Shown: in pieces, positions 4,014 to 63,051 of the stretch | How the letters are laid out: each line of letters starts with the position of its first letter | How positions within the stretch are numbered: the first letter of the stretch is position 1 | Source: Blattamonas nauphoetae | Taxonomy: Eukaryota > Preaxostyla > Oxymonadida | Length of the DNA stretch: 64,000 bases | Direction: 5' to 3' | NCBI GenBank assembly: GCA_033064195.1 | Contig: JARBJD010000243.1 | Span: 1-64,000 of the forward strand | Notes under the pieces: model-generated | What the model was told of the DNA's origin: nothing | Database searches by the model: none | The model's input: the letters and a program-made list of their open reading frames with translations, nothing else | Made by a program: the position numbers and the translations under genes

Positions 4014-4028
4014 AAATAAAGTTTGGAT

Positions 4029-31436: not shown

Positions 31437-31938
31437 TATTCTTAAACGACTCCTCACTGATTATGGAGAAGAAAAGCAAGAAAACATCAGTCTCCGGGGG
31501 GTAGGTCTAGACTCAGATCTGGAAAAGTCTAGACGCAGATCTGCAGATCGGTCTAGGCGCAGATCCCGAAGTCTACACGCAGATCCGTCAATATTGTCTC
31601 TATTTTGGTTTATAATGTGTCTTTAATGAATGAAAGAGACGTAGAATAGATGTAAAAGAATAAAAAGAAGAGTTTCAATGAAAAAAAGAGAGTGATTGAT
31701 GTGAAGACCCATCAACTGTTTCAATGGGTCGATCGTGGCCGCTGTCGAAAAATCGGCTTTTCTGAAACATCTTCAGAAAGAACACAGGTAAAACGGTTCA
31801 TGTCTCCAAAAAGACAATAGTAACAGCTCCCAGTAACTGGATGATGAGTCCGGTGTTGTCTCCTTTCCAACTCCGAAGGATGGTGTGAACTCAATCAGCC
31901 TCGTCTCCCTCATACTCGTCAAACCACTCCTGCTGCAT

Positions 31939-33530
31939 TCAGCAAAGTTGGGCGTGCGTGCCCAGTCGATCGGCCTCTAATTGCAGTTTCCCCTTTCTGA
32001 TTGGGAATTTCGTCTTCGCAGTCTCGTCCTGTCCCACATGCCACGCGAAGAAGTTGCCGCTGTTCTTCACCAGCTGCGTCTTGAAGGCACGCGGGATCTC
32101 CGGAATGGAGTTGACGTGGAGAGCTCGCATGGCTTCGAAGGCGAGAGCGACGGTGTTCGGATGGTCAACATCGACGACAGGTCGTGCATCGGCTTCGTGA
32201 CGCTTTCGGGGAAGGCCTGCTCCTTCGACCCTCCGAACGAGATGGACATGGGCGGGAGGGGAGAGTCATCGGGAACGGGGAGATGTTCAGCAGACCCGAC
32301 GACGTCTTCGTCTTCACTGCTTTTGCTTCGGCCTCGTTGATGGCGTCGTTCGAGATTTAGTTCAGAAGAGGGTTGGGTCCGTCTATAATCAGCATTGTTT
32401 CCATTCGCTGTGGATTCGGCGTAAGATTGAATGATGTTCTATGGAATGCTTCGTTGAGAAGCATCAAGAACGCAGCGTCGTGTTCGACGTTGTATCTTGT
32501 CCCAGCAGTACTCATGTCGAACGTGAATTGCTGCGTTGAGTCGAGGGCGACGGAGAGCGTGCTTGGGTTGGGAATCTGTGTTGGATCGACAATTCGTTCC
32601 TCGCTCGCTTTCTCGTTCGGCGATGCTCGATTCGTGCCCAAGTTGAGCAGCTGCATGAAGTCATCGCAGACAGGCGGGATGAGGAGGGACAGCGAGTGTG
32701 TGATGATCTGCACAGACACGAGGAACATCCGCCGTCGCCGCTGGGTGAGTGTCGGCATCGTCTGCGGCGGCGAAGGAAGCAGCACATCAGACTCCCACTC
32801 CTCATTCTCCGGCGGAGGAGGCGGTTCGGGATCGGAGTCGTCGCTTTCGAAGCGTGTGGCTGGATGTTGGACAAACGCGAGCCTCATGTCGCCTGAGATC
32901 TCTTCGGGGAGGCTGTCGTCCAGCGGAGGTGTGCTTCGTCCTGCGGTGAATTGTTGCGGAGTGGCAGGAGTGGGCTGGCGGACGATGCTCATTCGGAGTG
33001 ACTGGCGCGGATTGAACAGTCGCAATGGCGGGCTTGCTGTTGGACTGGTCCGAGCAGTCTCTACCGAGGGTTAAGGATTCTGACGCTGATTGAGCCTTGT
33101 GGCTGTTCGTCGGGCTCTTGAAGACGAACGGAAGATCAAACTTCGACTTGAATTCCTTCCCCAGCGGACCTGTCGATTTGTGTCCCTTCGAGAACGACAG
33201 TGTCTGCTGCTTGGTGATGGTCTCGTAGGACAACATGACGAAGGAAAGGAGGTGGAAGAGCGTCGACGTGAAGCTAGCGAGGAATGGGTGCGAGAAGGGT
33301 GTCTTGAGGATGTCCGAATTTGTCTGACGCTGCGTCAAGACATCCAAATACCCGACGAGCAGCGGAGAGAACACGATGCAGTACAATCGGTACAGAATGA
33401 TGACGCCGTCCTCGTCCACAAACTGTTCGATGAGCGAGCGTTCACTTGGTCCTACGATCTCGGAATTGGTGAATAGGAGTTTGAGTGCGTGCAGGATGGA
33501 AATTGATATTGAAGATGTTGCCCTGGTCAT
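31939..33530 (-). pseudogene. Captured host gene inside the 3.3-kb MULE, unknown product
   Basis: The minus-strand coding sequence is GC-richer than its flanks. From 33530 it encodes a helical N-terminus (LLFTNSEIVGPSERSLIEQF, SFTSTLFHLLSFVMLSYETI). It then shifts frame near 33025 into a proline/acid-rich linker (DDSDPEPPPPPENEEWESD) followed by helices (VQIITHSLSLLIPPVCDDFM) and ends near 32357. Further coding-like sequence (EIPRAFKTQLVKNSGNFFAW) continues to 31939 in another frame. I do not recognise the protein. Because all of it lies between the MULE ends, it is best read as a Pack-MULE capture of part of a cellular gene. Confidence 0.5.
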
Positions 33531-33559
33531 CGGGAGTGAAGGAGGGGAAGGGTGGGATC

Positions 33560-34730
33560 AACTGTGAGAAGGCAGATCAGTGTTTGCAGACAGGCCGCTG
33601 TGAGAGGGCTCAGCCAACGAGACGAGGTGCGAGGGTCGGAGTGGAAGGGTATTTTTCTGAAGGAGTGTTCCATCCAATGTCACTCGCCCTCTATCGCAGC
33701 ACCACAACTAACTTTCCCTCCTCCTTTTTCTCCTTCCTGACCTCCAGCTGCTGCGTCCGTGACTGGTCCGAACATCCTCCCTGGACGCGCCACTCCTTTT
33801 CCCCTCCTTCGCTGTACTTGCTTCTCTCGCTCTATTCACACTTGCACTGTCCTCAAATTCGTTTTTCCTGCTTGAAACGCATCGAATTCAGATCGTCGTG
33901 TTCAGGATCTGACCTGCGTTGTCTGATGAGGAGGACATGCTGTTCGCACATCCCCCGCTCCATCATTTACCCCTTGATGCATCTTTGTCATCGCAATATC
34001 ATCCCAAAAAGGGTTTGGAGGATGTTTCGGACTTGTTCTGAGTTGCGCCGTTCAGTTGGCTCGAGGAGACATTTGTTGTTCTCGTCACACTGAGATCACA
34101 TCATATTTGAGGGTCAATCTCTTTTCTTCTGTCTTTTCCAGCCGTAATCTTCGCAACCCCTCATTCTCCAGACAACTCAACGTCGCATGGCGAGAGTTCT
34201 GCCTTGAGATGGTCTGGCGTCTCCCAAAGAAAGTACTTGTCGAACAGTTTTTAAATATGTTGTGCGAGTAAATTGTACTTGTGGTCTCCTTCCAGTTTCC
34301 CGAATATCATGTCATCGAGAAGACAAGCTTCGAATTCTAAGTACTAATCGAGGCTTGGCTTAACCATTGAAGAAAAGCGACTGAGCAGTCTAAATAATTG
34401 CCTAAAATGCACATTAACATTGCACAACTTGGCTTGAATTGGATCTGGAGTGGCGTGAACAATTAAATGACAAACTTGTGAGAGAAGAGATCATTGTCAT
34501 TTTCTGACTGTTCCTGCAGGGTTTTTAGGAGTCTAATGCACATGACGTTGGCCGTTTGTTCCGAAACGAATCTAGAGTCGAGAAACAGGAGAATAGCTGC
34601 CCATAAAATCGTGTTCATCGTCAAGAGACTCACAGCATTGTATTTCACATTCTATTTACACTTTTTCTCAATAACACCTTAATCTTTTTCTCGTTTTCAT
34701 GACACATTCGTAAGAAAAAAGCTTAGAAGT
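33560..34730. other. Rest of the MULE interior
   Basis: There are short plus-strand frames at 33485-34271 with no recognisable motif, then AT-rich sequence to the right TIR. It may be further captured exons and introns (pyrimidine-rich tracts at 33700-33850), but I cannot support a gene. Confidence 0.35.
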
Positions 34731-35759
34731 GCTTTGGGAACCAGATCTGCGTGTAGACTTCGAGATCTGCGCCTAGACCGATCTGCAGATCTGCGTCTAG
34801 ACTTTTTCGGATCTGAGTCTAGACTTACCCGTCTCCGGGTATCTGAGAGAGCGAAGTCGTTTGCTGTCTTCATTGCCTGATGACAGTCAAAAGTGGAAAA
34901 ATGAGAGATATGGAATGATATAGACAAGAAAAAGGAAATTTGAAGGACAATAAGCACACACCAGTCGTATTCCACAGTTGCAGTTTCACAGTCTTTCCAT
35001 CAACCACTTGAAGCGATGCAGAATAGTAGAACACGCGGGAAACGTATGTGTCAGAAATCGAATTTCGGGTGTAGGTGAGAAGGAGACTAGACTTACCGAC
35101 GTTGCAATCACCAACACACACAACTCTCTTTTCCTGAAATTGTCACGTTTCCGAGTTGGTAAGGACATGAAGAGCGAGAGGAATGATCGAAGAAGAGAGT
35201 GAGGAAGGTAAAGAAATGAACACACTATCACGCCGGAGTTTCCAGATTGTTGGCTTGTTGGAGTTGGTGTTGAGGGTCCATTTGAACGAACTCCACTCGA
35301 ATGAGGTGCTGGATGAAGAGGAGGTTGGGTCTTGTTCGTTCTCGATTCGGCCAACTGTCTTTCCAAACCGGCAATCTTCCTTTCAGCTGCTTGTCTTTTC
35401 GATTCTGATTTGGTCAGATTCTCTTTCAGGCTGTTCAGTTCTGCATTCAGTTTGTCAACGGATTGTTTACGAGCGTTCATTTCGACTTCCAGGCTTGCCA
35501 TAGCACAATCACGATCTTTTTTGAGCGTAGTCTTTTCTTTTTCGAGCTCTTTTTCCTGTCTCGCCAATTTCGTTGAGTCCTCCTTTCTTTCCGATTCCAA
35601 TTCGGCTAGCTTTTCTTTCAAGCTTTTCAGTTCTGTTTCCAATCTGGCAGTTTTCTTTGGTTCGTTTTCGGATCGGAGTTCTTCGTCGTCGGCGTCTTTC
35701 AGTCTCCAAAGTGCTGATGTCGTGTTCACAATGCAACGAAACACTCCAAACGAACACAA

Positions 35760-44010: not shown

Positions 44011-44965
44011 TGATATGAGATATAGAGCATAACAACATGAAGAAAGATGAAAGAGAGTCGAGAAAACACACGATCTTTCGATTGATCGCTTCAGAAGTCA
44101 TTGTGTTGGATGTGGTGTTTGTGGTGGTTTGTGCATGTTGTTCGATCTTGTGCACTTTGGGCCCATCATTTCTGAATATCAGCACAGAATCTGGAGGATG
44201 ATCGAATCCATGAATAATGGTGGAAAATCGATTGAAACAAATATTATTTGATCAATTTGGACGAAATTACATTAAAATAATGTCGAATTGTTGGCTAATC
44301 ATCACCTTTCTCGCCGAAACGAAGGAATATTGGAAAAACGAACTCATCTTTCAATATTTTGTGTAAAGCCTTGACTATTGATCAGACTGGACTCTGAATT
44401 CCTCATTATAGTCTGATTCAAAAGGAAATACACTCCAAGAAGGAGGCTGTTTACCACGAGAAGTGTTATTCTGGTGATCCATCCCACCGATCGTTTGGTT
44501 TGCCAAGTGTGCAAGTTGTGCTGACGAACTTTTTGCTCCAGCACACACTGTTCAGGGTGTGTTTGCACGTTTGCTCAGGGTAACCCTTGTTTCTCCTATC
44601 TCATTTTTGTAACTTGTTTTCCTTCAACATTAATTTCAATTCGCAAAACACCGACGATCTAACCTTACATCAATTTGGCAAGACCCAAGAACCGGAAGCA
44701 GGAGTGACAGAAGTTACATCAGGTTCGTCGAAGATGATGAATTAATGAGTCATTTTCTGTGGATATTGGTTGATCTGCAGCGGAGATGGAACAAAGGGAC
44801 GGGAAAGGATGGAGTGATGTGGAAGAAAATGTCTGGAATGTTGAGAATGGAGGGATTCTTGGATGTGATTGAGGGACAGCTGCGAAACGACCGACACTCA
44901 AACTTATGGGGAGATGTTGTTGCCGAATCAATTCAGATTCTCTCGTTCCACTCTCCCTCGATCGT

Positions 44966-45060
44966 GGGTAGGTCTAGACTCAGATCTGAAAAAGTCTAGA
45001 CGCAGATCTGCAGATCGGTCTAGGCGCAGATCTGAAAGTCTACACGCAGATCTGTTATTA
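44966..45060 (+). promoter_or_regulatory. MULE terminal motif block, four 17-bp repeats
   Basis: Four copies of the motif GTCTAGACTCAGATCTG (variants GTCTAGGCG, GTCTACACG) are spaced by 3-7 bp, with an internal palindrome AGATCTGCAGATC. The same block occurs at all six MULE ends in the window (31499, 34738, 44966, 58035, 58277, 60303). Repeated terminal motifs of this kind are typical transposase binding sites; that role is an inference. Confidence 0.6.
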
Positions 45061-45238
45061 TTGTCTCTATTTTGGTTTATAATGTGTCTTTAATGAATGA
45101 CAGAGACGTGGAATAGAGAGAAAAGGAGAATCGAGCAATTTCAAAGATTGAAAATGATAGATTAAGGTAAAGGGTCGCGAACTAACTTCGTTCACAAAGT
45201 GGGATGTCGAAGTGAGAAAAGAGAGAGACTTGGTTTAG

Positions 45239-46705
45239 ATGAAGTCAACGATTCGGAAGGTTGAGGAGGAGGGGGTTGTCACGAAGCGACTGGTTGCGGA
45301 GACGATGCCAACGAGTCGGATGGCTGCGGAGACGATGCCAACCAGTCGGATGGCTGCGGAGACGATGCCAACCAGTCGGATGGCTGCGGAGACGATGCCA
45401 ACCAGTCGGATGGTTGCGGAGATGGTTCTCACGAAGCGACTGGTTGCGGAGATGGTTCTCACGAAGCGACTGGTTGCGGAGATGGTTCTCACGAAGCGAC
45501 TGCTTGAGGAGATGGTTCTCACGAAGCGACTGGTTGCGGAGATGGTTCTCACGAAGCGACTGGTTGCGGAGATGGTTCTCACGAAGCGACGGGTTGCGGA
45601 GATGGTTCTCACGAAGCGACTGCTTGAAGAGATGGTTCTCACGAAGCGACTGCTTGAGGAGATGGTTCTCACGAAGCGACTGCTTGAAGAGATGGTTCTC
45701 ACGAAGCGACTGCTTGCGGAGATGGTTCTCACGAAGCGACTGGTTGCGGAGATGGTTCTCACGAAGCGACTGCTTGAAGAGATGGTTCTCACGAAGCGAC
45801 TGCTTGAGGAGATGGTTCTCACGAAGCGACTGGTTGCGGAGATGGTTCTCACGAAGCGACTGGTTGCGGAGATGGTTCTCACGAAGCGACTGGTTGCGGA
45901 GATGGTTCTCACGAAGCGACTGCTTGAGGAGATGGTTCTCACGAAGCGACTGGTTGCGGAGATGGTTCTCCCGAAGCGACTGCTTGAGGAGATGGTTCTC
46001 ACGAAGCGACTGGTTGCGGAGATGGTTCTCACGAAGCGACTGGTTGCGGAGATGGTTCTCACGAAGCGACTGGTTGCGGAGATGGTTCTCACGAAGCGAC
46101 TGCTTGAGGAGATGGTTCTCACGAAGCGACTGGTTGCGGAGATGGTTCTCACGAAGCGACTGGTTGCGGAGATGGTTCTCACGAAGCGACTGCTTGAGGA
46201 GATGGTTCTCACGAAGCGACTGGTTGCGGAGATGGTTCTCCGAAGCGACTGCTTGAGGAGATGGTTCTCACGAAGCGACTGGTTGCGGAGATGGTTCTCA
46301 CGAAGCGACTGGTTGCGGAGATGGTTCTCACGAAGCGACTGGTTGCGGAGATGGTTCTCACGAAGCGACTGCTTGAGGAGATGGTTCTCACGAAGCGACT
46401 GGTTGCGGAGATGGTTCTCCCGAAGCGACTGCTTGAGGAGATGGTTCTCACGAAGCGACTGGTTGCGGAGATGGTTCTCACGAAGCGACTGGTTGCGGAG
46501 ATGGTTCTCACGAAGCGACTGGTTGCGGAGATGGTTCTCACGAAGCGACTGCTTGAGGAGATGGTTCTCACGAAGCGACTGGTTGCGGAGATGGTTCTCA
46601 CGAAGCGACTGGTTGCGGAGATGGTTCTCACGAAGCGACTGCTTGAGGAGATGGTTCTCACGAAGCGACTGGTTGCGGAGATGGTTCTCCGAAGCGACTG
46701 CTTGA
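45239..46705 (+). CDS. Decapeptide-repeat ORF starting in the left TIR, 488 aa before a frame change
   Basis: The ATG lies 273 bp from the element end, exactly as on the other side. The protein starts MKSTIRKVEEEGVVTKRLVA, then four units of ETMPTSRMAA, then dozens of MVLTKRLVAE / MVLTKRLLEE decapeptides. A single-base shortening of one 30-bp unit near 46240 moves the frame, and translation ends at 46705. Such a protein would be an amphipathic, highly basic and acidic helix. The conserved start and offset suggest it may once have been expressed, but the repeat alone would also give open frames, so the case is unproven. Confidence 0.4.
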   Translation: MKSTIRKVEEEGVVTKRLVAETMPTSRMAAETMPTSRMAAETMPTSRMAAETMPTSRMVAEMVLTKRLVAEMVLTKRLVAEMVLTKRLLEEMVLTKRLVAEMVLTKRLVAEMVLTKRRVAEMVLTKRLLEEMVLTKRLLEEMVLTKRLLEEMVLTKRLLAEMVLTKRLVAEMVLTKRLLEEMVLTKRLLEEMVLTKRLVAEMVLTKRLVAEMVLTKRLVAEMVLTKRLLEEMVLTKRLVAEMVLPKRLLEEMVLTKRLVAEMVLTKRLVAEMVLTKRLVAEMVLTKRLLEEMVLTKRLVAEMVLTKRLVAEMVLTKRLLEEMVLTKRLVAEMVLRSDCLRRWFSRSDWLRRWFSRSDWLRRWFSRSDWLRRWFSRSDCLRRWFSRSDWLRRWFSRSDCLRRWFSRSDWLRRWFSRSDWLRRWFSRSDWLRRWFSRSDCLRRWFSRSDWLRRWFSRSDWLRRWFSRSDCLRRWFSRSDWLRRWFSEATA

Positions 46706-49700
46706 AGAGATGGTTCTCACGAAGCGACTGCTTGAAGAGATGGTTCTCACGAAGCGACTGGTTGCGGAGATGGTTCTCACGAAGCGACTGGTTGCGGAGA
46801 TGGTTCTCACGAAGCGACTGCTTGAAGAGATGGTTCTCACGAAGCGACTGGTTGCGGAGATGGTTCTCACGAAGCGACTGGTTGCGGAGATGGTTCTCAC
46901 GACGCGACTGGTTGCGGAGATGGTTCTCACGAAGCGACTGCTTGAAGAGATGGTTCTCACGAAGCGACTGGTTGCGGAGATGGTTCTCACGAAGCGACTG
47001 CTTGAGGAGATGGTTCTCCCGAAGCGACTGCTTGAAGAGATGGTTCTCACGAAGCGACTGGTTGCGGAGATGGTTCTCACGAAGCGACTGGTTGCGGAGA
47101 TGGTTCTCACGAAGCGACTGCTTGAAGAGATGGTTCTCACGAAGCGACTGGTTGCGGAGATGGTTCTCACGAAGCGACTGGTTGCGGAGATGGTTCTCAC
47201 GACGCGACTGGTTGCGGAGATGGTTCTCACGAAGCGACTGCTTGAAGAGATGGTTCTCACGAAGCGACTGGTTGCGGAGATGGTTCTCACGAAGCGACTG
47301 GTTGCGGAGATGGTTCTCACGAAGCGACTGCTTGAAGAGATGGTTCTCACGAAGCGACTGGTTGCGGAGATGGTTCTCACGAAGCGACTGGTTGCGGAGA
47401 TGGTTCTCACGAAGCGACTGGTTGCGGAGATGGTTCTCACGAAGCGACTGCTTGAGGAGATGGTTCTCACGAAGCGACTGGTTGCGGAGATGGTTCTCCC
47501 GAAGCGACTGCTTGAAGAGATGGTTCTCACGAAGCGACTGGTTGCGGAGATGGTTCTCCCGAAGCGACTGCTTGAAGAGATGGTTCTCACGAAGCGACTG
47601 CTTGAAGAGATGGTTCTCACGAAGCGACTGGTTGCGGAGATGGTTCTCACGAAGCGACTGGTTGCGGAGATGGTTCTCACGAAGCGACTGGTTGCGGAGA
47701 TGGTTCTCACGAAGCGACTGCTTGAGGAGATGGTTCTCACGACGCGACTGGTTGCGGAGATGGTTCTCACGAAGCGACTGGTTGCGGAGATGGTTCTCAC
47801 GAAGCGACTGCTTGAGGAGATGGTTCTCACGAAGCGACTGGTTGCGGAGATGGTTCTCCCGAAGCGACTGCTTGAGGAGATGGTTCTCACGAAGCGACTG
47901 GTTGCGGAGATGGTTCTCACGAAGCGACTGGTTGCGGAGATGGTTCTCACGAAGCGACTGGTTGCGGAGATGGTTCTCACGAAGCGACTGCTTGAGGAGA
48001 TGGTTCTCACGAAGCGACTGGTTGCGGAGATGGTTCTCCGAAGCGACTGCTTGAGGAGATGGTTCTCACGAAGCGACTGGTTGCGGAGATGGTTCTCACG
48101 AAGCGACTGGTTGCGGAGATGGTTCTCACGAAGCGACTGCTTGAGGAGATGGTTCTCACGAAGCGACTGGTTGCGGAGATGGTTCTCACGAAGCGACTGG
48201 TTGCGGAGATGGTTCTCACGAAGCGACTGCTTGAGGAGATGGTTCTCACGAAGCGACTGGTTGCGGAGATGGTTCTCCCGAAGCGACTGCTTGAAGAGAT
48301 GGTTCTCACGAAGCGACTGGTTGCGGAGATGGTTCTCACGAAGCGACTGGTTGCGGAGATGGTTCTCACGACGCGACTGGTTGCGGAGATGGTTCTCACG
48401 AAGCGACTGCTTGAAGAGATGGTTCTCACGAAGCGACTGGTTGCGGAGATGGTTCTCACGAAGCGACTGGTTGCGGAGATGGTTCTCACGAAGCGACTGC
48501 TTGAAGAGATGGTTCTCACGAAGCGACTGGTTGCGGAGATGGTTCTCACGAAGCGACTGCTTGAAGAGATGGTTCTCCCGAAGCGACTGCTTGCGGAGAT
48601 GGTTCTCACGAAGCGACTGGTTGCGGAGATGGTTCTCACGAAGCGACTGGTTGCGGAGATGGTTCTCCCGAAGCGACTGCTTGCGGAGATGGTTCTCACG
48701 AAGCGACTGGTTGCGGAGATGGTTCTCACGAAGCGACTGCTTGAGGAGATGGTTCTCACGAAGCGACTGCTTGAGGAGATGGTTCTCACGACGCGACTGG
48801 TTGCGGAGATGGTTCTCACGAAGCGACTGGTTGCGGAGATGGTTCTCACGAAGCGACTGCTTGAGGAGATGGTTCTCACGAAGCGACTGGTTGCGGAGAT
48901 GGTTCTCACGAAGCGACTGGTTGCGGAGATGGTTCTCACGAAGCGACTGCTTGAGGAGATGGTTCTCACGAAGCGACTGGTTGCGGAGATGGTTCTCACG
49001 AAGCGACTGGTTGCGGAGATGGTTCTCACGAAGCGACTGGTTGCGGAGATGGTTCTCACGAAGCGACTGGTTGCGGAGATGGTTCTCACGAAGCGACTGC
49101 TTGAGGAGATGGTTCTCACGACGCGACTGGTTGCGGAGATGGTTCTCACGAAGCGACTGGTTGCGGAGATGGTTCTCACGAAGCGACTGCTTGAAGAGAT
49201 GGTTCTCACGAAGCGACTGCTTGAGGAGATGGTTCTCACGAAGCGACTGGTTGCGGAGATGGTTCTCACGAAGCGACTGGTTGCGGAGATGGTTCTCACG
49301 AAGCGACTGGTTGCGGAGATGGTTCTCACGAAGCGACTGCTTGAGGAGATGGTTCTCACGAAGCGACTGGTTGCGGAGATGGTTCTCACGAAGCGACTGG
49401 TTGCGGAGATGGTTCTCCCGAAGCGACTGCTTGAGGAGATGGTTCTCACGAAGCGACTGGTTGCGGAGATGGTTCTCACGAAGCGACTGGTTGCGGAGAT
49501 GGTTCTCACGAAGCGACTGGTTGCGGAGATGGTTCTCACGAAGCGACTGCTTGAGGAGATGGTTCTCACGACGCGACTGGTTGCGGAGATGGTTCTCACG
49601 AAGCGACTGGTTGCGGAGATGGTTCTCACGAAGCGACTGCTTGAGGAGATGGTTCTCACGACGCGACTGGTTGCGGAGATGGTTCTCACGAAGCGACTGG

Positions 49701-52700
49701 TTGCGGAGATGGTTCTCACGAAGCGACTGCTTGAGGAGATGGTTCTCACGAAGCGACTGGTTGCGGAGATGGTTCTCACGAAGCGACTGGTTGCGGAGAT
49801 GGTTCTCCGAAGCGACTGCTTGAGGAGATGGTTCTCACGAAGCGACTGGTTGCGGAGATGGTTCTCACGAAGCGACTGGTTGCGGAGATGGTTCTCACGA
49901 AGCGACTGGTTGCGGAGATGGTTCTCACGAAGCGACTGCTTGAGGAGATGGTTCTCACGACGCGACTGGTTGCGGAGATGGTTCTCACGAAGCGACTGGT
50001 TGCGGAGATGGTTCTCACGAAGCGACTGGTTGCGGAGATGGTTCTCACGAAGCGACTGCTTGAGGAGATGGTTCTCACGACGCGACTGGTTGCGGAGATG
50101 GTTCTCACGAAGCGACTGGTTGCGGAGATGGTTCTCACGAAGCGACTGCTTGAGGAGATGGTTCTCACGAAGCGACTGGTTGCGGAGATGGTTCTCCGAA
50201 GCGACTGCTTGAGGAGATGGTTCTCACGAAGCGACTGGTTGCGGAGATGGTTCTCACGAAGCGACTGGTTGCGGAGATGGTTCTCACGAAGCGACTGGTT
50301 GCGGAGATGGTTCTCACGAAGCGACTGCTTGAGGAGATGGTTCTCACGAAGCGACTGGTTGCGGAGATGGTTCTCCCGAAGCGACTGCTTGAGGAGATGG
50401 TTCTCACGAAGCGACTGGTTGCGGAGATGGTTCTCACGAAGCGACTGGTTGCGGAGATGGTTCTCACGAAGCGACTGGTTGCGGAGATGGTTCTCACGAA
50501 GCGACTGGTTGCGGAGATGGTTCTCACGAAGCGACTGGTTGCGGAGATGGTTCTCACGAAGCGACTGGTTGCGGAGATGGTTCTCACGAAGCGACTGCTT
50601 GAGGAGATGGTTCTCACGACGCGACTGGTTGCGGAGATGGTTCTCACGAAGCGACTGGTTGCGGAGATGGTTCTCACGAAGCGACTGCTTGAGGAGATGG
50701 TTCTCACGAAGCGACTGGTTGCGGAGATGGTTCTCACGAAGCGACTGCTTGAGGAGATGGTTCTCACGAAGCGACTGGTTGCGGAGATGGTTCTCACGAA
50801 GCGACTGGTTGCGGAGATGGTTCTCACGAAGCGACTGGTTGCGGAGATGGTTCTCACGAAGCGACTGGTTGCGGAGATGGTTCTCACGAAGCGACTGCTT
50901 GAGGAGATGGTTCTCACGAAGCGACTGCTTGCGGAGATGGTTCTCACGAAGCGACTGGTTGCGGAGATGGTTCTCACGAAGCGACTGGTTGCGGAGATGG
51001 TTCTCACGAAGCGACTGGTTGCGGAGATGGTTCTCACGAAGCGACTGCTTGAGGAGATGGTTCTCACGACGCGACTGGTTGCGGAGATGGTTCTCACGAA
51101 GCGACTGGTTGCGGAGATGGTTCTCACGAAGCGACTGCTTGAAGAGATGGTTCTCACGAAGCGACTGCTTGAGGAGATGGTTCTCACGAAGCGACTGGTT
51201 GCGGAGATGGTTCTCACGAAGCGACTGGTTGCGGAGATGGTTCTCACGAAGCGACTGGTTGCGGAGATGGTTCTCACGAAGCGACTGCTTGAGGAGATGG
51301 TTCTCACGAAGCGACTGGTTGCGGAGATGGTTCTCACGAAGCGACTGGTTGCGGAGATGGTTCTCACGAAGCGACTGGTTGCGGAGATGGTTCTCACGAA
51401 GCGACTGCTTGAGGAGATGGTTCTCACGAAGCGACTGGTTGCGGAGATGGTTCTCACGAAGCGACTGCTTGAAGAGATGGTTCTCACGAAGCGACTGCTT
51501 GAGGAGATGGTTCTCACGACGCGACTGGTTGCGGAGATGGTTCTCACGAAGCGACTGCTTGAAGAGATGGTTCTCACGAAGCGACTGGTTGCGGAGATGG
51601 TTCTCACGACGCGACTGGTTGCGGAGATGGTTCTCACGACGCGACTGGTTGCGGAGATGGTTCTCACGAAGCGACTGCTTGAAGAGATGGTTCTCACGAA
51701 GCGACTGGTTGCGGAGATGGTTCTCACGAAGCGACTGGTTGCGGAGATGGTTCTCACGAAGCGACTGGTTGCGGAGATGGTTCTCACGAAGCGACTGGTT
51801 GCGGAGATGGTTCTCACGACGCGACTGGTTGCGGAGATGGTTCTCACGAAGCGACTGCTTGAAGAGATGGTTCTCACGAAGCGACTGCTTGAGAAGATGG
51901 TTCTCACGAAGCGACTGGTTGCGGAGATGGTTCTCACGAAGCGACTGCTTGAAGAGATGGTTCTCACGAAGCGACTGGTTGCGGAGATGGTTCTCACGAA
52001 GCGACTGGTTGCGGAGATGGTTCTCACGAAGCGACTGCTTGAAGAGATGGTTCTCACGAAGCGACTGCTTGTGGAGATGGTTCTCACGAAGCGACTGGTT
52101 GCGGAGATGGTTCTCACGACGCGACTGCTTGAGGAGATGGTTCTCACGAAGCGACTGCTTGAAGAGATGGTTCTCACGAAGCGACTGGTTGCGGAGATGG
52201 TTCTCACGAAGCGACTGGTTGCGGAGATGGTTCTCACGAAGCGACTGCTTGAGGAGATGGTTCTCACGAAGCGACTGGTTGCGGAGATGGTTCTCACGAA
52301 GCGACTGCTTGAAGAGATGGTTCTCACGAAGCGACTGGTTGCGGAGATGGTTCTCACGAAGCGACTGGTTGCGGAGATGGTTCTCACGACGCGACTGGTT
52401 GCGGAGATGGTTCTCACGAAGCGACTGCTTGAAGAGATGGTTCTCACGAAGCGACTGGTTGCGGAGATGGTTCTCACGAAGCGACTGGTTGCGGAGATGG
52501 TTCTCACGAAGCGACTGCTTGAAGAGATGGTTCTCACGAAGCGACTGCTTGAGGAGATGGTTCTCACGAAGCGACTGGTTGCGGAGATGGTTCTCACGAC
52601 GCGACTGGTTGCGGAGATGGTTCTCACGATGCGACTGCTTGAAGAGATGGTTCTCACGAAGCGACTGGTTGCGGAGATGGTTCTCACGAAGCGACTGGTT

Positions 52701-53300
52701 GCGGAGATGGTTCTCACGAAGCGACTGCTTGAGGAGATGGTTCTCACGAAGCGACTGGTTGCGGAGATGGTTCTCACGAAGCGACTGCTTGAAGAGATGG
52801 TTCTCACGAAGCGACTGGTTGCGGAGATGGTTCTCACGAAGCGACTGGTTGCGGAGATGGTTCTCACGAAGCGACTGGTTGCGGAGATGGTTCTCACGAA
52901 GCGACTGGTTGCGGAGATGGTTCTCACGAAGCGACTGCTTGAAGAGATGGTTCTCACGAAGCGACTGGTTGCGGAGATGGTTCTCACGAAGCGACTGGTT
53001 GCGGAGATGGTTCTCACGAAGCGACTGCTTGAAGAGATGGTTCTCACGAAGCGACTGCTTGAGGAGATGGTTCTCACGAAGCGACTGGTTGCGGAGATGG
53101 TTCTCACGACGCGACTGGTTGCGGAGATGGTTCTCACGATGCGACTGCTTGAAGAGATGGTTCTCACGAAGCGACTGGTTGCGGAGATGGTTCTCACGAA
53201 GCGACTGGTTGCGGAGATGGTTCTCACGAAGCGACTGCTTGAAGAGATGGTTCTCACGAAGCGACTGGTTGCGGAGATGGTTCTCACGAAGCGACTGCTG
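45270..53300 (+). repeat. 30-bp satellite array, left TIR, about 267 units
   Basis: Units read ACGAAGCGACTGGTTGCGGA plus GATGGTTCTC. Main variants change GGTTGCGG to GCTTGAGG or GCTTGAAG; rarer ones read CCGAAG or ACGACGCG. The first units are a diverged type (ATGCCAACCAGTCGGATGG). Because the unit is 30 bp and lacks stop codons, very long open frames appear on both strands. Five units are 29 bp (about 46240, 46690, 48039, 49807 and 50196). The array ends at 53300 in GACGAGGAGGG. Confidence 0.97.
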
Positions 53301-54050
53301 ACGAGGAGGGTATTGATGGTTGAGAGATTCCGCGATGATGGGATTGAATTCGTCCGGGATGCAATTCTGGTCCCTCATCGAAGGATGCTGCCAATAGTGC
53401 AAGTGGCGTGGTCGAGGACTCCCAGACATTCCCATTTGTGTTGAGGGTGTCTTTTCAGTGTCATCATCTGGTTGTTGGGGAAGACGGTGTCGATGCTGTT
53501 GGGATGACGTTCTTGATGCGTATGGGGATTGAGAATCGCCCCCCTCGACACCATCCGAAATGTCGTCATGGTGAAGTGATTTAAATAGAGTTCAAAGTTT
53601 TTCGGCTTGACAGGGACATAGATGAATCCATTTCGTTCCATCGGAAGAGGAGAGTTGTGATAGATAAGGTAGTCTTTTGAGATATTTGAGGTGGTGATGG
53701 AGAAGAGGTGATACTTGGGAAATTAGAGATCGACGATCTTAAATACTGATTGAGATGTGGAGTTTCAATTTGGTACCCATTCTTTGAAAAAGCGTTCCCA
53801 ACTTTTTCAATCAGATGCAGATAACCTAATTATTGCATCTCGTTGTTAATACTCTTCACTTGGACTCGCTGTCGAAATTTGGAGGGTCTATAAATTGTTT
53901 AAAAGCTTCTCAATGAAAGAATCTAAACTGTTGAGAATCATCTCGCATCTGATGGGATGATTCAGGGACATTTTTTACTTATGTTCGGTTTCTTTCTTCT
54001 GTTGCTCATTCAGTATCGCTCTTTTTCAGCTTTTTCTGTTGAGCGAGTCG
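53301..54050. other. MULE interior between left array and transposase
   Basis: Non-repetitive sequence. A minus-strand frame at 53375-53641 (MERNGFIYVPVKPKNFELYL) has no recognised motif and could be a captured exon or a small MULE gene. AT-rich sequence with no feature follows to 54050. Confidence 0.4.
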
Positions 54051-55797
54051 AATGACTCTGATATCCGCTGGTTCCCGAGCTTTGTTGCTCCTCCTTTCAA
54101 TTTGTTTTCCCTTGTGACTTGCGCACGGCTCTTCGGCTCCAATAGTTGTTGTGGAGTGGATAATGAGGTTTGGTCTGGGTGAGGCGTGTCAGGTGCCAAC
54201 CACCAACATTTGCCAATTTCAGATGGTTGGATGGATATTCCTCGCTGAATTTTGTTCCGTATGTTGCACAGGCAAGGGACGCGATGGGTTCTTTGGATGA
54301 GGCAGTCACATCTTTTGTGGGATGGTTCCTTCCATCTACTGCGATATCACTGATTGCCTTCAGACAATCAACGGACACGACGCTAATAACAGAATGGAGG
54401 AGATGTTGGTCTCGGAGATATGCTGGTTGCATAATTTTTCGCTCCAAATTTCTTTGTAAAACTGCGAGTTGGGCCGTTGTATATGAAGCGATTCTGTCAA
54501 CAGTCGTAAAAGGTGTTGGGAAGGAGTAACGATATAGTCCTTAAGGACTCGATGGAGACCTTCTAGAGGAGATGTGGTGAGTTCTCCAAGATGGGGATGG
54601 CGGTCAATTGAGTATGAACAGAACTTGTCTGCAAATGGCAGCCAAGTATTCGAAAGGTATGACATTCCCTTTGGGATTTTTGAGTATTTTTGTTTTAGGG
54701 ACTCAAAGGCAAGGATGAAATTTGATTTCGTGCTTTCTGAGATCATTGATTGGAAATCTCCCATAAAATCCTCAAGCAATTTGTTGTCAGGCAGCTTTGT
54801 TTTCGGATTGATGAGGAGAGGAAGAAAGTATGCTTTGACAGCTGTGAGAATGTGGAAACGGCAGAGAATGACTGGAACGGCAGGCAGAGTACTATGTAGA
54901 GCATTCAACTGGGCGAGTGATCTATCGGAAAGTATGACTTCAACATTTTGAATCCTACTAGATCGTTAAAGGTGTGCAGTATTTCGGAGATATCATTTTC
55001 TGCTTCTCCCTCATCAATCCAAAACCGATAGAAAAGTGTCGCCGCAGGATGTGCGCCCTGCAAAATGGAGGAGGGGCATTCCGTACCTGTTCGTTTTATA
55101 AGTTGAATCCAGGTAGACAACAGATGGAAACAAGCGAAACATCTGAACAGACCTGGGGTCTGCAAAGAACAAAGCTCGAAGGTGTCCTTCTTGATCTTGC
55201 ATTTTCTAAAAATCCACTTTTCTTCACTTAGCTCAGCTTCAAGCATCTCCATCGCGGTCCTGCCTTGCATGGCCTTCTTTGCTCTTCTCTCAGAAGGTTT
55301 GTAAGATCTTTGCCAATCACTGGCACTTCTCTTGTAGAATTGATGCCAACGAGGATGTTCTTCCGTCTTGTTCCCGCCGCAAACTGTGCTATTGCTGATT
55401 TCCGTTCCTCATCCGTGAGACCCCGAGCCTCATGGTAAACGCCCATCTGTTCTACGTGCTTGTGGTCGTGTTCGCGATGGTTCCAGGTTCGCCTCCATTC
55501 TTTGTCACCTATCTTCCGAATGTAGACACCGAATGGACACGAACCAGCGATTGAGAATCGCTTCCTCTTCTGTATGGAATCTGTGCCATCGGTACTATGG
55601 TATGACTTACTGTGTTTACATTTCAGAATTGCCTTTGAATCCACTTTTCCTCCAGCTATCGACAGGATGTAGCCATTTCGAAGAGCGAAGGCTTTGGTGT
55701 CTTCGATTGCACTGGCACGACTGGCAAAAGTTTCATCAGGAGGAGGAACGAAATCACTGTCTTCATCGTCTGAGAGACTATCTTCAATGAATGACAT
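54050..55797 (-). pseudogene. MULE transposase, decayed
   Basis: It starts MSFIEDSLSDDEDSDF at 55797. The N-terminal part has a FAR1/WRKY-GCM1-like zinc-binding domain (CKHSKSYH, CPFGVYIRK, WNHREHDHKHV). The core carries VVYLDSTYKTNRYGMPLL, the first catalytic aspartate region typical of MULE transposases, then a region with VILCRFHILTAVKAYF, matching the C/H motif that precedes the catalytic glutamate block. The frame changes at about 55265, 55190, 55020 and 54940, so the enzyme is broken. A C-terminal part (SVVSVDCLKAISDIAVDG) continues to about 54100. It would have moved this element and the two shorter MULEs. Confidence 0.85.
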
Positions 55798-55853
55798 CGA
55801 GACAGTTGCAACAGCTCACCAATAATAATTTTACATTTGGAGTGAAGTGTGAC

Positions 55854-57848
55854 TCAGATTCCACTCCGGATATTCATGTGACACATCGACATCGTCTCCT
55901 CAACCAGCCGACTCGCGACAACCATCTCCTCAATCATCCGACTCGCCACAACCATCTTATCAACCATTCGATTTGTTGACATCGTCTCCGCAACCAGTCG
56001 CTTCGTGAGAACCATCTCCGCAACCAGTCGCGTCGTGAGAACCATCTCCGCAACCAGTCGCTTCGTGAGAACCATCTCCGCAACCAGTCGCTTCGTGAGA
56101 ACCATCTCCGCAACCAGTCGCTTCGTGAGAACCATCTCCGCAACCAGTCGCTTCGTGAGAACCATCTCCTCAAGCAGTCGCTTCGTGAGAACCATCTCTT
56201 CAAGCAGTCGCTTCGTGAGAACCATCTCCGCAACCAGTCGCTTCGTGAGAACCATCTCCGCAACCAGTCGCTTCGTGAGAACCATCTCCGCAACCAGTCG
56301 CTTCGTGAGAACCATCTCCGCAACCAGTCGCGTCGTGAGAACCATCTCCGCAACCAGTCGCTTCGTGAGAACCATCTCCGCAACCAGTCGCTTCGTGAGA
56401 ACCATCTCTTCAAGCAGTCGCTTCGTGAGAACCATCTCTTCAAGCAGTCGCTTCGTGAGAACCATCTCCGCAACCAGTCGCTTCGTGAGAACCATCTCCT
56501 CAAGCAGTCGCTTCGTGAGAACCATCTCTTCAAGCAGTCGCTTCGTGAGAACCATCTCCGCAACCAGTCGCGTCGTGAGAACCATCTCCGCAACCAGTCG
56601 CTTCGTGAGAACCATCTCCGCAACCAGTCGCTTCGTGAGAACCATCTCCGCAACCAGTCGCTTCGTGAGAACCATCTCCGCAACCAGTCGCTTCGTGAGA
56701 ACCATCTCCGCAACCAGTCGCTTCGTGAGAACCATCTCCGCAACCAGTCGCTTCGTGAGAACCATCTCCTCAAGCAGTCGCTTCGTGAGAACCATCTCTT
56801 CAAGCAGTCGCTTCGTGAGAACCATCTCCTCAAGCAGTCGCTTCGTGAGAACCATCTCCGCAACCAGTCGCTTCGTGAGAACCATCTCCGCAACCAGTCG
56901 CTTCGTGAGAACCATCTCCGCAACCAGTCGCTTCGTGAGAACCATCTCCGCAACCAGTCGCTTCGGGAGAACCATCTCCGCAACCAGTCGCTTCGTGAGA
57001 ACCATCTCCTCAAGCAGTCGCTTCGTGAGAACCATCTCTTCAAGCAGTCGCTTCGTGAGAACCATCTCCTCAAGCAGTCGCTTCGTGAGAACCATCTCCT
57101 CAAGCAGTCGCTTCGTGAGAACCATCTCCTCAAGCAGTCGCTTCGTGAGAACCATCTCCTCAAGCAGTCGCTTCGTGAGAACCATCTCCGCAACCATCCG
57201 ACTCGTTGGCATCGTCTCCGCAACCATCCGACTGGTTGGCATCGTCTCCGCAGCCATCCGACTCGTTGGCATCGTCTCCGCAACCAGTCGCTTCGTGAGA
57301 ACCATCTCCGCAACCAGTCGCTTCGGGAGAACCATCTCCGCAACCAGTCGCTTCGTGAGAACCATCTCCTCAAGCAGTCGCTTCGTGAGAACCATCTCTT
57401 CAAGCAGTCGCTTCGTGAGAACCATCTCCTCAAGCAGTCGCTTCGTGAGAACCATCTCCTCAAGCAGTCGCTTCGTGAGAACCATCTCCGCAACCAGTCG
57501 CTTCGTGAGAACCATCTCCGCAACCAGTCGCTTCGTGAGAACCATCTCCGCAACCAGTCGCTTCGTGAGAACCATCTCCTCAAGCAGTCGCTTCGTGAGA
57601 ACCATCTCCGCAACCAGTCGCTTCGTGAGAACCATCTCCGCAACCAGTCGCTTCGTGAGAACCATCTCCGCAACCAGTCGCTTCGTGAGAACCATCTCCG
57701 CAACCATCCGACTCGTTGGCATCGTCTCCGCAACCATCCGACTGGTTGGCATCGTCTCCGCAGCCATCCGACTCGTTGGCATCGTCTCCGCAACCAGTCG
57801 CTTCGTGACAACCCCCTCCTCCTCAACCTTCCGAATCGTTGACTTCAT
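55854..57848 (-). CDS. Decapeptide-repeat ORF in the right TIR, 664 aa, intact
   Basis: Mirror copy of the ORF at 45239: the same MKSTIRKVEEEGVVTKRLVA start 273 bp inside the element end, then ETMPTSRMVA blocks and about 60 decapeptides. Here no unit is shortened, so the frame stays open through the array to a non-repeat C-terminus (MVVASRMIEEM, then SMCHMNIRSGI). It stops 57 bp before the transposase start on the same strand, so both could share one transcript from the TIR. Whether it is translated is unknown; an intact frame of this length may only reflect the 30-bp period. Confidence 0.45.
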   Translation of the reverse strand: MKSTIRKVEEEGVVTKRLVAETMPTSRMAAETMPTSRMVAETMPTSRMVAEMVLTKRLVAEMVLTKRLVAEMVLTKRLVAEMVLTKRLLEEMVLTKRLVAEMVLTKRLVAEMVLTKRLVAEMVLTKRLLEEMVLTKRLLEEMVLTKRLLEEMVLTKRLLEEMVLTKRLVAEMVLPKRLVAEMVLTKRLVAETMPTSRMAAETMPTSRMVAETMPTSRMVAEMVLTKRLLEEMVLTKRLLEEMVLTKRLLEEMVLTKRLLEEMVLTKRLLEEMVLTKRLLEEMVLTKRLVAEMVLPKRLVAEMVLTKRLVAEMVLTKRLVAEMVLTKRLVAEMVLTKRLLEEMVLTKRLLEEMVLTKRLLEEMVLTKRLVAEMVLTKRLVAEMVLTKRLVAEMVLTKRLVAEMVLTKRLVAEMVLTKRLVAEMVLTTRLVAEMVLTKRLLEEMVLTKRLLEEMVLTKRLVAEMVLTKRLLEEMVLTKRLLEEMVLTKRLVAEMVLTKRLVAEMVLTTRLVAEMVLTKRLVAEMVLTKRLVAEMVLTKRLVAEMVLTKRLLEEMVLTKRLLEEMVLTKRLVAEMVLTKRLVAEMVLTKRLVAEMVLTKRLVAEMVLTTRLVAEMVLTKRLVAETMSTNRMVDKMVVASRMIEEMVVASRLVEETMSMCHMNIRSGI
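55890..57815 (-). repeat. 30-bp satellite array, right TIR, about 64 units
   Basis: Same units as the left array in inverted orientation, so the arrays belong to the TIRs. Two blocks of the GTCGGATGG...ATGCCAAC type (57181-57290 and 57705-57815) show that an outer segment was duplicated inward. Units near 55890-55980 are diverged. All visible units keep the 30-bp length. Confidence 0.96.
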
Positions 57849-58276
57849 CTAAACCAAGTCTCTCTCTTTTCTCACTTCGACATCCCACTTTGTGAACGAA
57901 GTTAGTTCGCGACCCTTTACCTTAATCTATCATTTTCAATCTTTGAAATTGCTCGATTCTCCTTTTCTCTCTATTCCACGTCTCTGTCATTCATTAAAGA
58001 CACATTATAAACCAAAATAGAGACAATAATAACAGATCTGCGTGTAGACTTTCAGATCTGCGTCTAGACCGATCTGCAGATCTGCGTCTAGACTTTTTCG
58101 GATCTGAGCCTAGACTTACCCCTCAATCGTGACCACACCCTGCTTCTCGTTGGCCGCGACTGGGTTTGATTTTCAGGATGGAAAGTGGGATTTGAAGGGG
58201 ACATTGATGAGAGATGGATGTGCATGATTGTGTGGTGATTGTTGGGCAAAATGGAGCTCTCTTGATGACGGATTGG

Positions 58277-60390
58277 GGGTAAGTCTAGGCTCAGATCTAG
58301 AAAAGTCTAGGCGCAGATCTGCAGATCGGTCTAGGCGCAGATCTGAAAGTCTACACGCAGATCCGTCATTCTTCGCCTTGCTTTTGCTTCCATATCACAT
58401 TTTCGACATCCGACATCTAAATTTCGATATCATTTCTTCTTTTTCGTTCACTTCTCACCTTATCCCGTTTTTTAGACTGTTCTCACAATGTTCAAACACT
58501 CCTTGGGTTGATCAAGTCTTCTCACCGACTCAACGAAGAATAACGCCTGGATGATGGTTCACTAGCAAATGTATGTCATCTAAATCCTATTTCATTCTCA
58601 TTTTCTGCCTTATCGATCCCACAGCTCTATGATACGTTTGACGTTCCGCACACCGTCTACGAAGACATGTGCGTTGATACACATTTTCTCCCATATCAAC
58701 TGATTGCAAGAACTAATGGGTTTGCTTTTTCGTCTTTTCTTCCCTTTTGTTGGTTCTTCATCGATATCAGCTCAAACTCTTTTCACAAAGTGCCAACCCT
58801 TCATCCTCGTTCTTCTCGCCCTTCACGAATCTTCAATTTTGTATTCGTTCCCTTCTGGACATTATCAGGGGACGAAAGTGTGTGAAAATTACCTATAGTT
58901 TTCAGGAGATCACTTCCGTCTCGATCTCGATTCATTCTCCTCGCTGTATGACTTCCCTCTGTTCATCTCCTCTCTGTTCTGTTGTCTTCATAGATCAGGA
59001 AACTTCAGATCCATTGTTGGTTCATTGGAGCCTTCGATGATCACGAAACACCGTTGTTCACCTCGCTCCGTATTAAGTGGGGATCCTCACTCGAATTCGC
59101 ATCTACATCTCCCACACGATTCATCTCCCCGTTCTGACGGCCGACGAACCAAATCCTTCCTGAATTTGTCCATTTCACATCACTCAACATTGTGATCCCA
59201 TTACAACGTCTAACATCACGTTCACAATTGTAACACCATGCGCAACGAATTTGTCCAACTTATCAATTAAAAGAACCACAAGACGAGTCAATTACTTCGG
59301 AATTGTCTTCAGATTTGCCGTTCGATCTCGACATTGGACTACAACCATCATCACCATCAAGATCACAGTTCCTCTCCAATCAGAACGATCCCCGAATGGT
59401 CTCAGAGGGAAAAACGGAGCAGGACATGTTGAACAATCATTATTATTTGCAGAAATTCGACTAACATCGCCACTGTTGAGACGGAGGAATGGAATAGCAG
59501 ATACGAAGATAAGAGGTGAATTTCCATGTATGCACTTAGAATCGTCAACAAAGACCACTTTTCATTTTTTGTGCTTTTTGTTATCTTCTTCAAGTTCTTA
59601 CAGCCTTTGATCTTTCTTTTTCTCAGTTTCGCCCAATTCCGTTGATGTACCAAATTATTGTTATTCGGATCATCCGCACAGTAACGTGGAGTCTGCAAAC
59701 ACTACTCAAACCGCTAGTAGATGCCATTCTGATTCAGAAGAAGTCAGGACAAAGCATGGAAGAAAAATTGAAAGACAAGAAGAGAGAAGAAGAAACAAGT
59801 AAGAAAGGGAACAGAAAATGAGTGCGTCGCTCGATTCTGGCTGACTATGACCAACCGATTGACGAGTATGACAGCTTCCACAACAATCTTCAATTCTCCC
59901 TTCATCAGTATTCTCCTCGTCTCTCCTCCCTCCCAGTAGCATTAAATTCCTTCTCACCACCTCCTCCTCCCATCATCTCGCTCAATTTTCCCACTATGCC
60001 TTCTCCCTCCTCTCAATCACCTCTCTCCGCATCCTCTGCTCATATGGATGAGACCAGACACCTCTAAGTTGTTCGTTCATTTCCAGCCTTCTTACACGTC
60101 ACGACAAACCAACGTGATTGATCAAATTGCTTCAAATGACCACTTCCTCCTTGATCAACCCAGGACATGTTTGAACATTGGGAAAACAGATGGAAGAATG
60201 TCAAAAAGTGAGAAATGAGCAAAAAAAGTGGAAATGATGTCGAAATTTAGATGTAGGATGTCGAAAATGTGATATGGAAGCAAAAGCAAGGCGAAGAATG
60301 ACGGATCTGCGTGTAGACTTTCAGATCTGCGCCTAGACCGATCTGCAGATCTGCGCCTAGACTTTTCTAGATCTGAGCCTAGACCTACCC
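58277..60390. mobile_element. MULE, 2114 bp, non-autonomous
   Basis: The ends GGGTAAGTCTAGGCTCAGAT and the inverse GAGCCTAGACCTACCC are flanked by the exact 9-bp duplication ACGGATTGG (58268-58276 and 60391-60399). The TIRs extend about 245 bp (58277-58521 and 60148-60390), including CTTTTGCTTCCATATCAC. No transposase. It lies only 155 bp from the end of the 13.2-kb MULE, but its subterminal TIR sequence differs, so it is a separate subfamily. Confidence 0.93.
58522..60147 (+). other. Interior of the 2.1-kb MULE, captured sequence
   Basis: Several plus-strand stretches look like exons of unknown genes: DTFDVPHTVYEDMCVDTHFL after an AG near 58622; DHFRLDLDSFSSLYDFPLF near 58910; and EPQDESITSELSSDLPFDLD near 59270, which stays open to a stop at 59462. 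None matches a family I know, and no single frame joins them. This fits capture of cellular gene pieces (Pack-MULE), but random sequence is not excluded for any one of them. Confidence 0.4.
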
Positions 60391-62100: not shown

Positions 62101-63051
62101 TCACATGACCTCGCAGTTTGAATTTCCGTCATCATCACTACCTCTTCCAGATCGTCTTTTGGTCAATGCCCTTTCGAGAGCTGCCTTTGCAACGGTGTCG
62201 AAGACATCCGAAAGGTTTTCTTTTGTTTTCGCCGAACACTCAACGTATTTGTACAGTTTCAGTCTCTCCACCAGTTCCTCGGCCTGCAATGAAGACAAAA
62301 AGCGGAAAGGTGAGGCAGGAGATGAGAGAGTGGAGAAAAGTGGCAAGGAGGGGAAGAGAAGGAATGTGTTGGTGATGGCGGCAGACCTGCTCCTTCGAGA
62401 CAAGAGTAGTACCGTCAGGGGGATTCGCACGATAATCACTCTTTGTGCCAACAAGCACAACGGGAGTGTCGTGTGTATATGTACAGATGTCTGGGAAATA
62501 CTGTCGAGACGAAAAGATGATGATATGGAAACACCAGATGAAGACAGACTCGGCTTTCAATGTTCTTAAACGACTGCTCATTGATTATGGAGAAGAGAAG
62601 CAAGAAAACATCTGTTTCGGAGAAACTGAGCGAGCGAAGTCTGTCGTAGTCTTCTTGGCCTGAGGACAGTTGAAAGTGATAAAAATGAGATAGATGTAAT
62701 GATATAGACCATAAAAATGTCATAAATGGACTTGAAGCACATACCGGCAGTATCCCACAGTTGGAGTTTCACTTTCTTTCCATCCACCACTTGAAGTGAT
62801 TCATAGTTGTCGAACACTGTGGAAACGGATGTGTCAGAAAACGAATTTTGGGTGTAGGAGAGAATGAGGCATGTTTTACCGACAGCGCCATCACCAATCA
62901 CAGAAACTTTAGCTTCCTGAAAGTGAAACGAATTCCGAGTTGGGAGGAATGCGATGATTGAAAAGAAGGGGAGGAGAAGAGAGTGAGGAAGGCAGAGATA
63001 TGAACAGACCGTCACAATAGAGTTTCCAGATTGTGCACCACTTCGTGACAT
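62101..63051 (-). CDS. Rho-family GTPase, five exons, 206 aa
   Basis: Exons: 63051-63010, 62916-62745, 62659-62550, 62500-62387 and 62283-62101; spliced length 621 bp, divisible by three. Introns are 93, 85, 49 and 103 bp with donors GTCTGT, GTATGT, GTCTGT and GTCTGC. Motifs: P-loop GDGAVGKTC, switch I VSTVFDNY (Rho type), [16 protein letters not shown] (G3 and switch II), GTKSD (G4; TKxD as in Rho), ECSAKT (G5) and a C-terminal NCEVM CAAX box for prenylation. It should act as a membrane-attached switch for actin or vesicle traffic. It has all catalytic elements, including the switch II glutamine. Copy A (30579-35759) is its degenerate relative. Confidence 0.92.

Follow-up and report, generated by a model that had tools for sequence, protein, structure and literature searches.

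Foldback elements of the Drosophila FB/NOF kind carry long terminal inverted repeats (TIRs) made of tandem repeats, have arms of variable length and lie between 9-bp target site duplications (TSDs). We analyzed a stretch of 64,000 nucleotides from the oxymonad Blattamonas nauphoetae (contig JARBJD010000243.1, positions 1 to 64,000; hereafter the window), in which positions 44966-58121 are a complete transposable element of 13,156 bp belonging to the Mutator-like elements (MULEs). Its likeness to FB/NOF is one of form; unit sequence and host differ. Judged by its architecture, the element is a Foldback-type MULE. We consider it, with a probability of about 0.8, to be a Foldback-type Mutator-like DNA transposon in which a 30-bp minisatellite has grown inside each TIR and in which the interior of the array changes after insertion. 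Tandem-repeat TIRs on MULEs with 9-bp TSDs are a known Foldback architecture, exemplified by Tm1, Tetris and Muta1. The original prediction for this locus had not named Foldback elements.

Tm1, a Mutator/Foldback family of Meloidogyne, is described as having composite TIRs with a variable number of an internal tandem motif and 9-bp TSDs, in an account that holds the Foldback form to arise repeatedly (PMC3169594). The B. nauphoetae element shares with Tm1 the MULE transposase, the 9-bp TSDs and the composite TIRs with a variable internal motif, but the Tm1 motif is about 14 bp, whereas the unit described here is 30 bp, reaches 268 units and resides in an oxymonad. Tetris, from Drosophila virilis, likewise has foldback TIRs with variable tandem repeats and a TSD of 8-10 bp, and its authors invoke unequal crossing over for two alleles that are one repeat apart (PMC4079207); its repeats are 220 bp, no transposase was found for it and the repeats became large satellite arrays, whereas in B. 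nauphoetae no array was found outside the family. Muta1 of Aedes aegypti is a MULE with an 8-9-bp TSD and subterminal tandem repeats in its TIRs, termed a type 2 Foldback element, but its TIRs are described as 145 bp with 9 copies of a 12-bp repeat and without long minisatellite arms (PMC5225508). The same composite-TIR form is reported for Galileo on a P-type transposase (PMC3573991).

Two further comparisons concern other MULEs. Rehavkus has a MULE-like structure with a minisatellite adjoining a TIR (PMC6446971), but only before the 3' TIR, whereas the arrays described here lie at both ends, on both sides of the transposase, in all six copies that have the transposase region; membership in Rehavkus was rejected for this reason. 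The PHD finger, a Rehavkus trait, gave no match at E up to 0.1 in a 479-amino-acid (aa) frame of one copy, whose C-terminus is incomplete, or in a B. nauphoetae MULE protein at NCBI. The TvMULEs are MULEs of a metamonad protist, Trichomonas vaginalis, but are described as having no long perfect TIRs, and the words "tandem", "foldback" and "satellite" are absent from the main text of that paper (PMC2725143). The literature searched, with Repbase and most subscription papers outside its scope, yielded no account of MULEs or foldback elements from oxymonads, and the main text of the B. nauphoetae genome paper does not contain the string "transpos" (PMC10703272). What this family adds to the known architecture is the oxymonad host, very long arrays in both arms, a recognizable transposase and confinement of the satellite to the element.

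Anatomy and copies of the element

The two outer TIRs of the window copy are identical at 269 of 273 positions (4 mismatches), and directly inward of each lies an ATG, at 45239 on the left and in mirror image at 57848 on the right. Each arm is composite, consisting of 24-bp subterminal repeats, a unique part and the 30-bp array. The 273-bp TIRs, the mirrored ATGs and the 9-bp duplication with one mismatch had all been claimed in the original prediction and were confirmed; its estimate of about 267 left and 64 right units lies within one unit of the 268 and 64 counted with a custom unit parser, which includes diverged end units and read the right array from 57824 down to 55905. Tandem Repeats Finder (TRF) agrees, reporting 263.1 copies (45411-53297) and 4.4 copies (45291-45422) on the left and 61.6 copies on the right. 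Chance is of no concern for this design because four other complete copies have the same one.

Those copies came from a search of 88,311,006 bases in 837 contigs. The published assembly comprises 879 contigs and 88,537,989 bp; Canu, Nanopolish and Pilon were used to build it from Oxford Nanopore Technologies (ONT) R9.4 reads sheared to about 20 kb (PMC10703272). The TIR query covered the best 40 of 336 candidates, and family sizes from the TIR and transposase queries are lower bounds. There are at least five complete copies: C161, the copy in the window (13,156 bp), C212a (11,611 bp), C212b (6,571 bp), C158 (5,786 bp) and C9 (5,250 bp). Two loci are incomplete, C170 with one TIR only and C82, a truncated relic. 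Across the five complete copies the 273-bp outer TIR pair shows 0-4 mismatches, and every one has a 9-bp TSD, exact in four of the five. The complete copies occupy four independent insertion sites. Empty-site paralogues were sought for two of these and found for both, each with a single copy of the target: C130 for the window insertion and C415 for the insertion carried by C158 and C9. Since the C130 site holds one CTCGATCGT, the right TSD of the window, CTCAATCGT, is the changed one.

Array length differs greatly between copies, an outcome that the original prediction had named as support for its reading. Counted on the 3' side/5' side of the transposase with end units included, the arms contain 268/64 units in C161, 232/33 in C212a, 51/36 in C158, 30/39 in C9, 37/76 in C212b and 141/243 in C170, whose 3'-side arm ends in unrelated sequence. 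Left arms thus range over 30-268 units and right arms over 33-243 with diverged end units counted; the array interiors, without end units, hold 24 to 263. The borders are nearly constant. At the outer border one "e" unit is followed by "m" and "a" units in all 11 arms that retain the TIR, the inner border shows the same CTGACGAGGAGG junction in all five left arms of complete copies, and "d-i" units precede the same inner sequence in all six right arms. Nine of 12 arrays are free of indels, with 1-bp deletions in the left arm of C161 and in both arms of C170. A count of 1153 in-phase units that retain the strict core, excluding those in which the core is altered, gave 25 variants, three of which account for 1056 units.

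The transposase region is present, at about 99% identity, in six of the seven loci. More distant relatives of the transposase occur at C90, C55, C76, C830, C48:129968, C822 and other loci. The longest frame, the 479-aa frame of C212a, matches Pfam PF10551 (E 5.4e-19), in the region corresponding to that in which the original prediction had placed a MULE transposase between the arrays, and is 41% identical over 446 aa to the NCBI entry "putative MULE transposase domain protein [Blattamonas nauphoetae]". That NCBI protein itself has a full-length match at 100% in the genome searched. Its residues D231, D293, C314-x2-H317 and E414 sit where the MULE residues are expected. The single transposase frames of the window copy gave no MULE match in Pfam. 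Four copies align with the window copy in one piece; over about 2.7 kb each differs from it by 5-8 mismatches and has 8-14 gap openings, and some of these gaps may be ONT assembly errors. The first frame break falls at the same place in C161, C158 and C9, where it may be real, and at other places in C212a, C212b and C170. The copies appear to have been moved by the MULE transposase. We also noted an insertion of about 470 bp in the internal region of C212a (C212:48394-48865) with short inverted ends GGGCAAAAATTTGACAA, which is probably a small non-autonomous transposon.

Array change after insertion

The comparison of C158 with C9 bears most directly on how the arrays behave. Both have the same TSD and sit in a shared block of some 10 kb (C158:79591-90408 / C9:120826-131114), which lies inside both contigs and has differing surroundings. 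One flank aligns over 3999 bases (with 7 gap columns) and the other over 1033, and none of these 5,032 aligned bases is mismatched; the internal stretch has 1 mismatch in 2695 bases with 10 gap columns. To judge from TSD and flanks, C158 and C9 are copies of one insertion, present in a block that is a very recent segmental duplication, a pair of haplotypes or an assembly duplicate. Nevertheless their arms differ, by 21 units on the left (51 versus 30) and 3 on the right (36 versus 39). The same insertion with clean flanks and unequal arms implies that the arrays changed after insertion, unless the assembly is wrong.

Internal block repeats give some indication of how such change might proceed. 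In the left array of C212a a block of 28 units recurs with an offset of 84 units, where 60 shuffles reached a maximum of 11, and the left array of C161 repeats 15 units, against a maximum of 14, likewise in 60 shuffles. In these two of the nine arrays tested, the repeats are a better fit to unequal exchange or to recombinational repair than to slippage by single units alone. The original prediction had held that the arrays expand by unequal exchange after insertion; the length change between C158 and C9 bears out the change itself, the block repeats are compatible with the proposed exchange, and the mechanism is one that we infer.

Exchange between the two arms of one element is likely, based on unit composition, on the distribution of the "n" unit and on TIR types. 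In unit composition, the two arms of an element resemble each other more than randomly paired arms do (8 of 720; 3 of 120 without C9, the duplicate of C158). The "n" unit, which elsewhere marks the right inner border, is dispersed through both arms in C212b only. One TIR type occurs at the left ends of all five complete copies and the other at four of six right ends (C161, C212a, C212b and C170); in C158 and C9 both ends are of the left type, which suggests one conversion. A stronger version, on which we are tentative and which we would sooner doubt than adopt, is that the inverted arms act as an internal recombination engine, in which homology within and between arms drives array turnover far faster than point mutation and units move between arms. 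This turnover rate is suggested because array length shifted by 21 units in one arm and 3 in the other, whereas 5 kb of flank acquired no substitution.

Could the array lengths, and above all the difference between C158 and C9, be artefacts of nanopore assembly in a 30-bp repeat, the element itself being real? The R9.4 reads, their shear size and the use of Canu (PMC10703272) give this idea some substance, as do the excess of gap openings over mismatches between copies and the near-identity of the C158 and C9 flanks, by which one could duplicate the other in the assembly. We nonetheless think it unlikely. The arrays keep an exact 30-bp register, the border units are kept and the differences consist of whole-unit blocks in the interior with their own rare variants; moreover, C158 and C9 diverge beyond the shared block, both lie inside contigs, and every array is shorter than the read shear size.

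The reading that we prefer, of a Foldback-type MULE with arrays that change after insertion, would work as follows. A MULE transposase would act on composite TIRs made up of the terminal motif, the 24-bp subterminal repeats and a unique stretch, and insertion would produce the 9-bp duplication. The 30-bp minisatellite would expand inside each TIR with its outer and inner borders nearly fixed, and its interior would grow or shrink after insertion by homology-dependent exchange, either unequal exchange or recombinational repair in another register. Such exchange would probably also take place occasionally between an element's own two arms, and the arrays would travel with the element and not be released as free satellites. 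Several observations weigh against this reading. None of the copies has an unbroken full-length transposase frame. The sharing of words of 4, 5 or 6 units between arms is that of random pairing (309, 297 and 229 of 720, respectively), and seven of the nine arrays tested lack a block repeat above shuffles. C158 and C9 may be allelic or paralogous, and the array lengths, and with them the exact unit counts, are those of an ONT/Canu assembly rather than of raw reads.

Coding, transposase binding and confinement of the satellite

A second alternative is that the arms encode a protein of 10-aa repeats that is under selection, for example as a leader or partner of the transposase. An ATG is fixed inside each TIR, in five of six copies the right-arm frame stays open as far as a shared end (344-774 aa), and the 664-aa frame of the window matches Pfam PF07382 (HC2, histone H1-like) above the cut-off, at E 1.1e-12. 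However, the commonest unit is open in five of its six frames, and therefore the openness of an arm frame weighs little; the left-arm frame is open in three of five copies and broken in two, and the right-arm frame is broken in C170. Single-step variants of the unit comprise 15 non-synonymous, 3 synonymous and 0 stop changes, against 188:71:11 expected without selection, and no homologous protein was found for the 664-aa frame among 185 candidates of a protein search. The HC2 match is, in our judgement, taken as compositional. With neither a purifying signal nor a homologue, the array as a selected protein was rejected, and such a protein seems improbable. We treat the reading frame as incidental and infer that the arrays are carried along as passengers and yield no protein.

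It also appears improbable, somewhat more so, that the units serve as extra transposase-binding sites kept by selection for mobility, an analogy with a proposal for the internal TIR repeats of Galileo (PMC3573991) to which the presence of arrays on both sides of every transposase region lends some color. The unit scores 14.0 against the outer TIR, whereas shuffles average 14.19 and 187 of 300 reach that score; the unit as a copy of the terminal motif was rejected, its similarity not exceeding that of shuffles. In addition, the same ends are widespread without the satellite. A 23-mer of the TIR has 229 exact matches in the genome, 11 in array-bearing copies and 218 outside them (7 of the 11 come from 100 listed places and 4, those of C212, from the end sequences of the copies). 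Among the 100 of 229 ends listed there are 43 end pairs, 2.3-13.2 kb apart, of which 3 bear arrays and 40 are satellite-free.

Two such satellite-free relatives lie in the window itself. One, at 31499-34830 (3332 bp), has the same kind of TIR end; C27, C35 and C129 have end pairs separated by 3333-3334 bp, which suggests a multi-copy non-autonomous family. For two frames within the element Pfam gave no match at E up to 0.01. The other, at 58277-60390 (2.1 kb), starts 155 bases to the right of the end of the array-bearing element. At these two elements and at three loci with related ends (C48, C410 and C620), TRF found only subterminal repeats of 20-24 bp and no second array.

All 1074 exact genome matches of a core 20-mer of the unit (593 forward and 481 reverse) fall inside the seven loci of the family, as do all 148 rows of a 360-bp array query, and by these two queries no 30-bp array was found outside the family in the assembled genome. 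The suggestion of the original prediction that a genomic satellite may spread by way of MULE arrays is very improbable and, although arrays do move with the element to new sites and an element-borne repeat became satellite DNA in Tetris (PMC4079207), it was rejected on this whole-genome count, with 218 of the 229 TIR ends also lying outside array-bearing copies.

The window and what the family offers

Coordinates of the element are collected in Table 1. In view of its matches to other genomic rows, the segment at 53450-53889 is probably shared or captured sequence. A homologue of it at another genomic locus has no satellite at the matching place, and two frames of this homologue have no Pfam match.

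Table 1. Parts of the element and its target site in the window (copy C161)
Feature	Position	Strand	Basis
Left 9-bp TSD, CTCGATCGT	44957..44965	.	TSD comparison; one target copy at the C130 empty site
Left outer TIR, 273 bp; 24-bp subterminal repeats at 44972-45054	44966..45238	+	TIR comparison, TRF
ATG and lead-in to left array	45239..45262	+	Reading frames, unit parser
Left array, 268 units of 30 bp, six with a 1-bp deletion	45263..53297	+	Unit parser, TRF
Segment from left array to transposase; 53450-53889 matches at least 34 other genomic rows at 81-88%	53298..53889	-	Genome search
MULE transposase region, split into several frames in this copy	54360..55797	-	Frames; PF10551 on C212a copy
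Right array, 64 units of 30 bp, inverted relative to left; within 664-aa frame 55854-57848	55905..57824	-	Unit parser, frames
ATG and lead-in to right array	57825..57848	-	Reading frames, unit parser
Right outer TIR, 273 bp	57849..58121	-	TIR comparison
Right 9-bp TSD, CTCAATCGT, one change relative to left	58122..58130	.	TSD comparison, C130 empty site

Elsewhere in the window, two large frames of 657 and 1468 aa occupy 2031-8435 on the minus strand, and we take them to resemble an integrase and a polymerase of Maverick/Polinton type. The 657-aa frame has a sub-threshold Pfam rve match (E 0.0031) and the 1468-aa frame no Pfam match. Two host-like GTPase frames are found at 19119-20267 (AIG1, E 2.7e-9) and 62578-63051 (Ras family, E 7.6e-18).

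Together, these data place Foldback-type MULE ends, at large scale, in an oxymonad, accompanied by a recognizable transposase, by empty sites and by several copies whose array lengths are known. They also describe an extensive element-borne minisatellite that has seeded no satellite DNA elsewhere in the assembly. In this family, array change after insertion can be measured against flanking sequence. Should the inverted arms be confirmed as a recombination engine, the family would offer a natural clock-and-ruler system for following how a minisatellite turns over inside a transposon.
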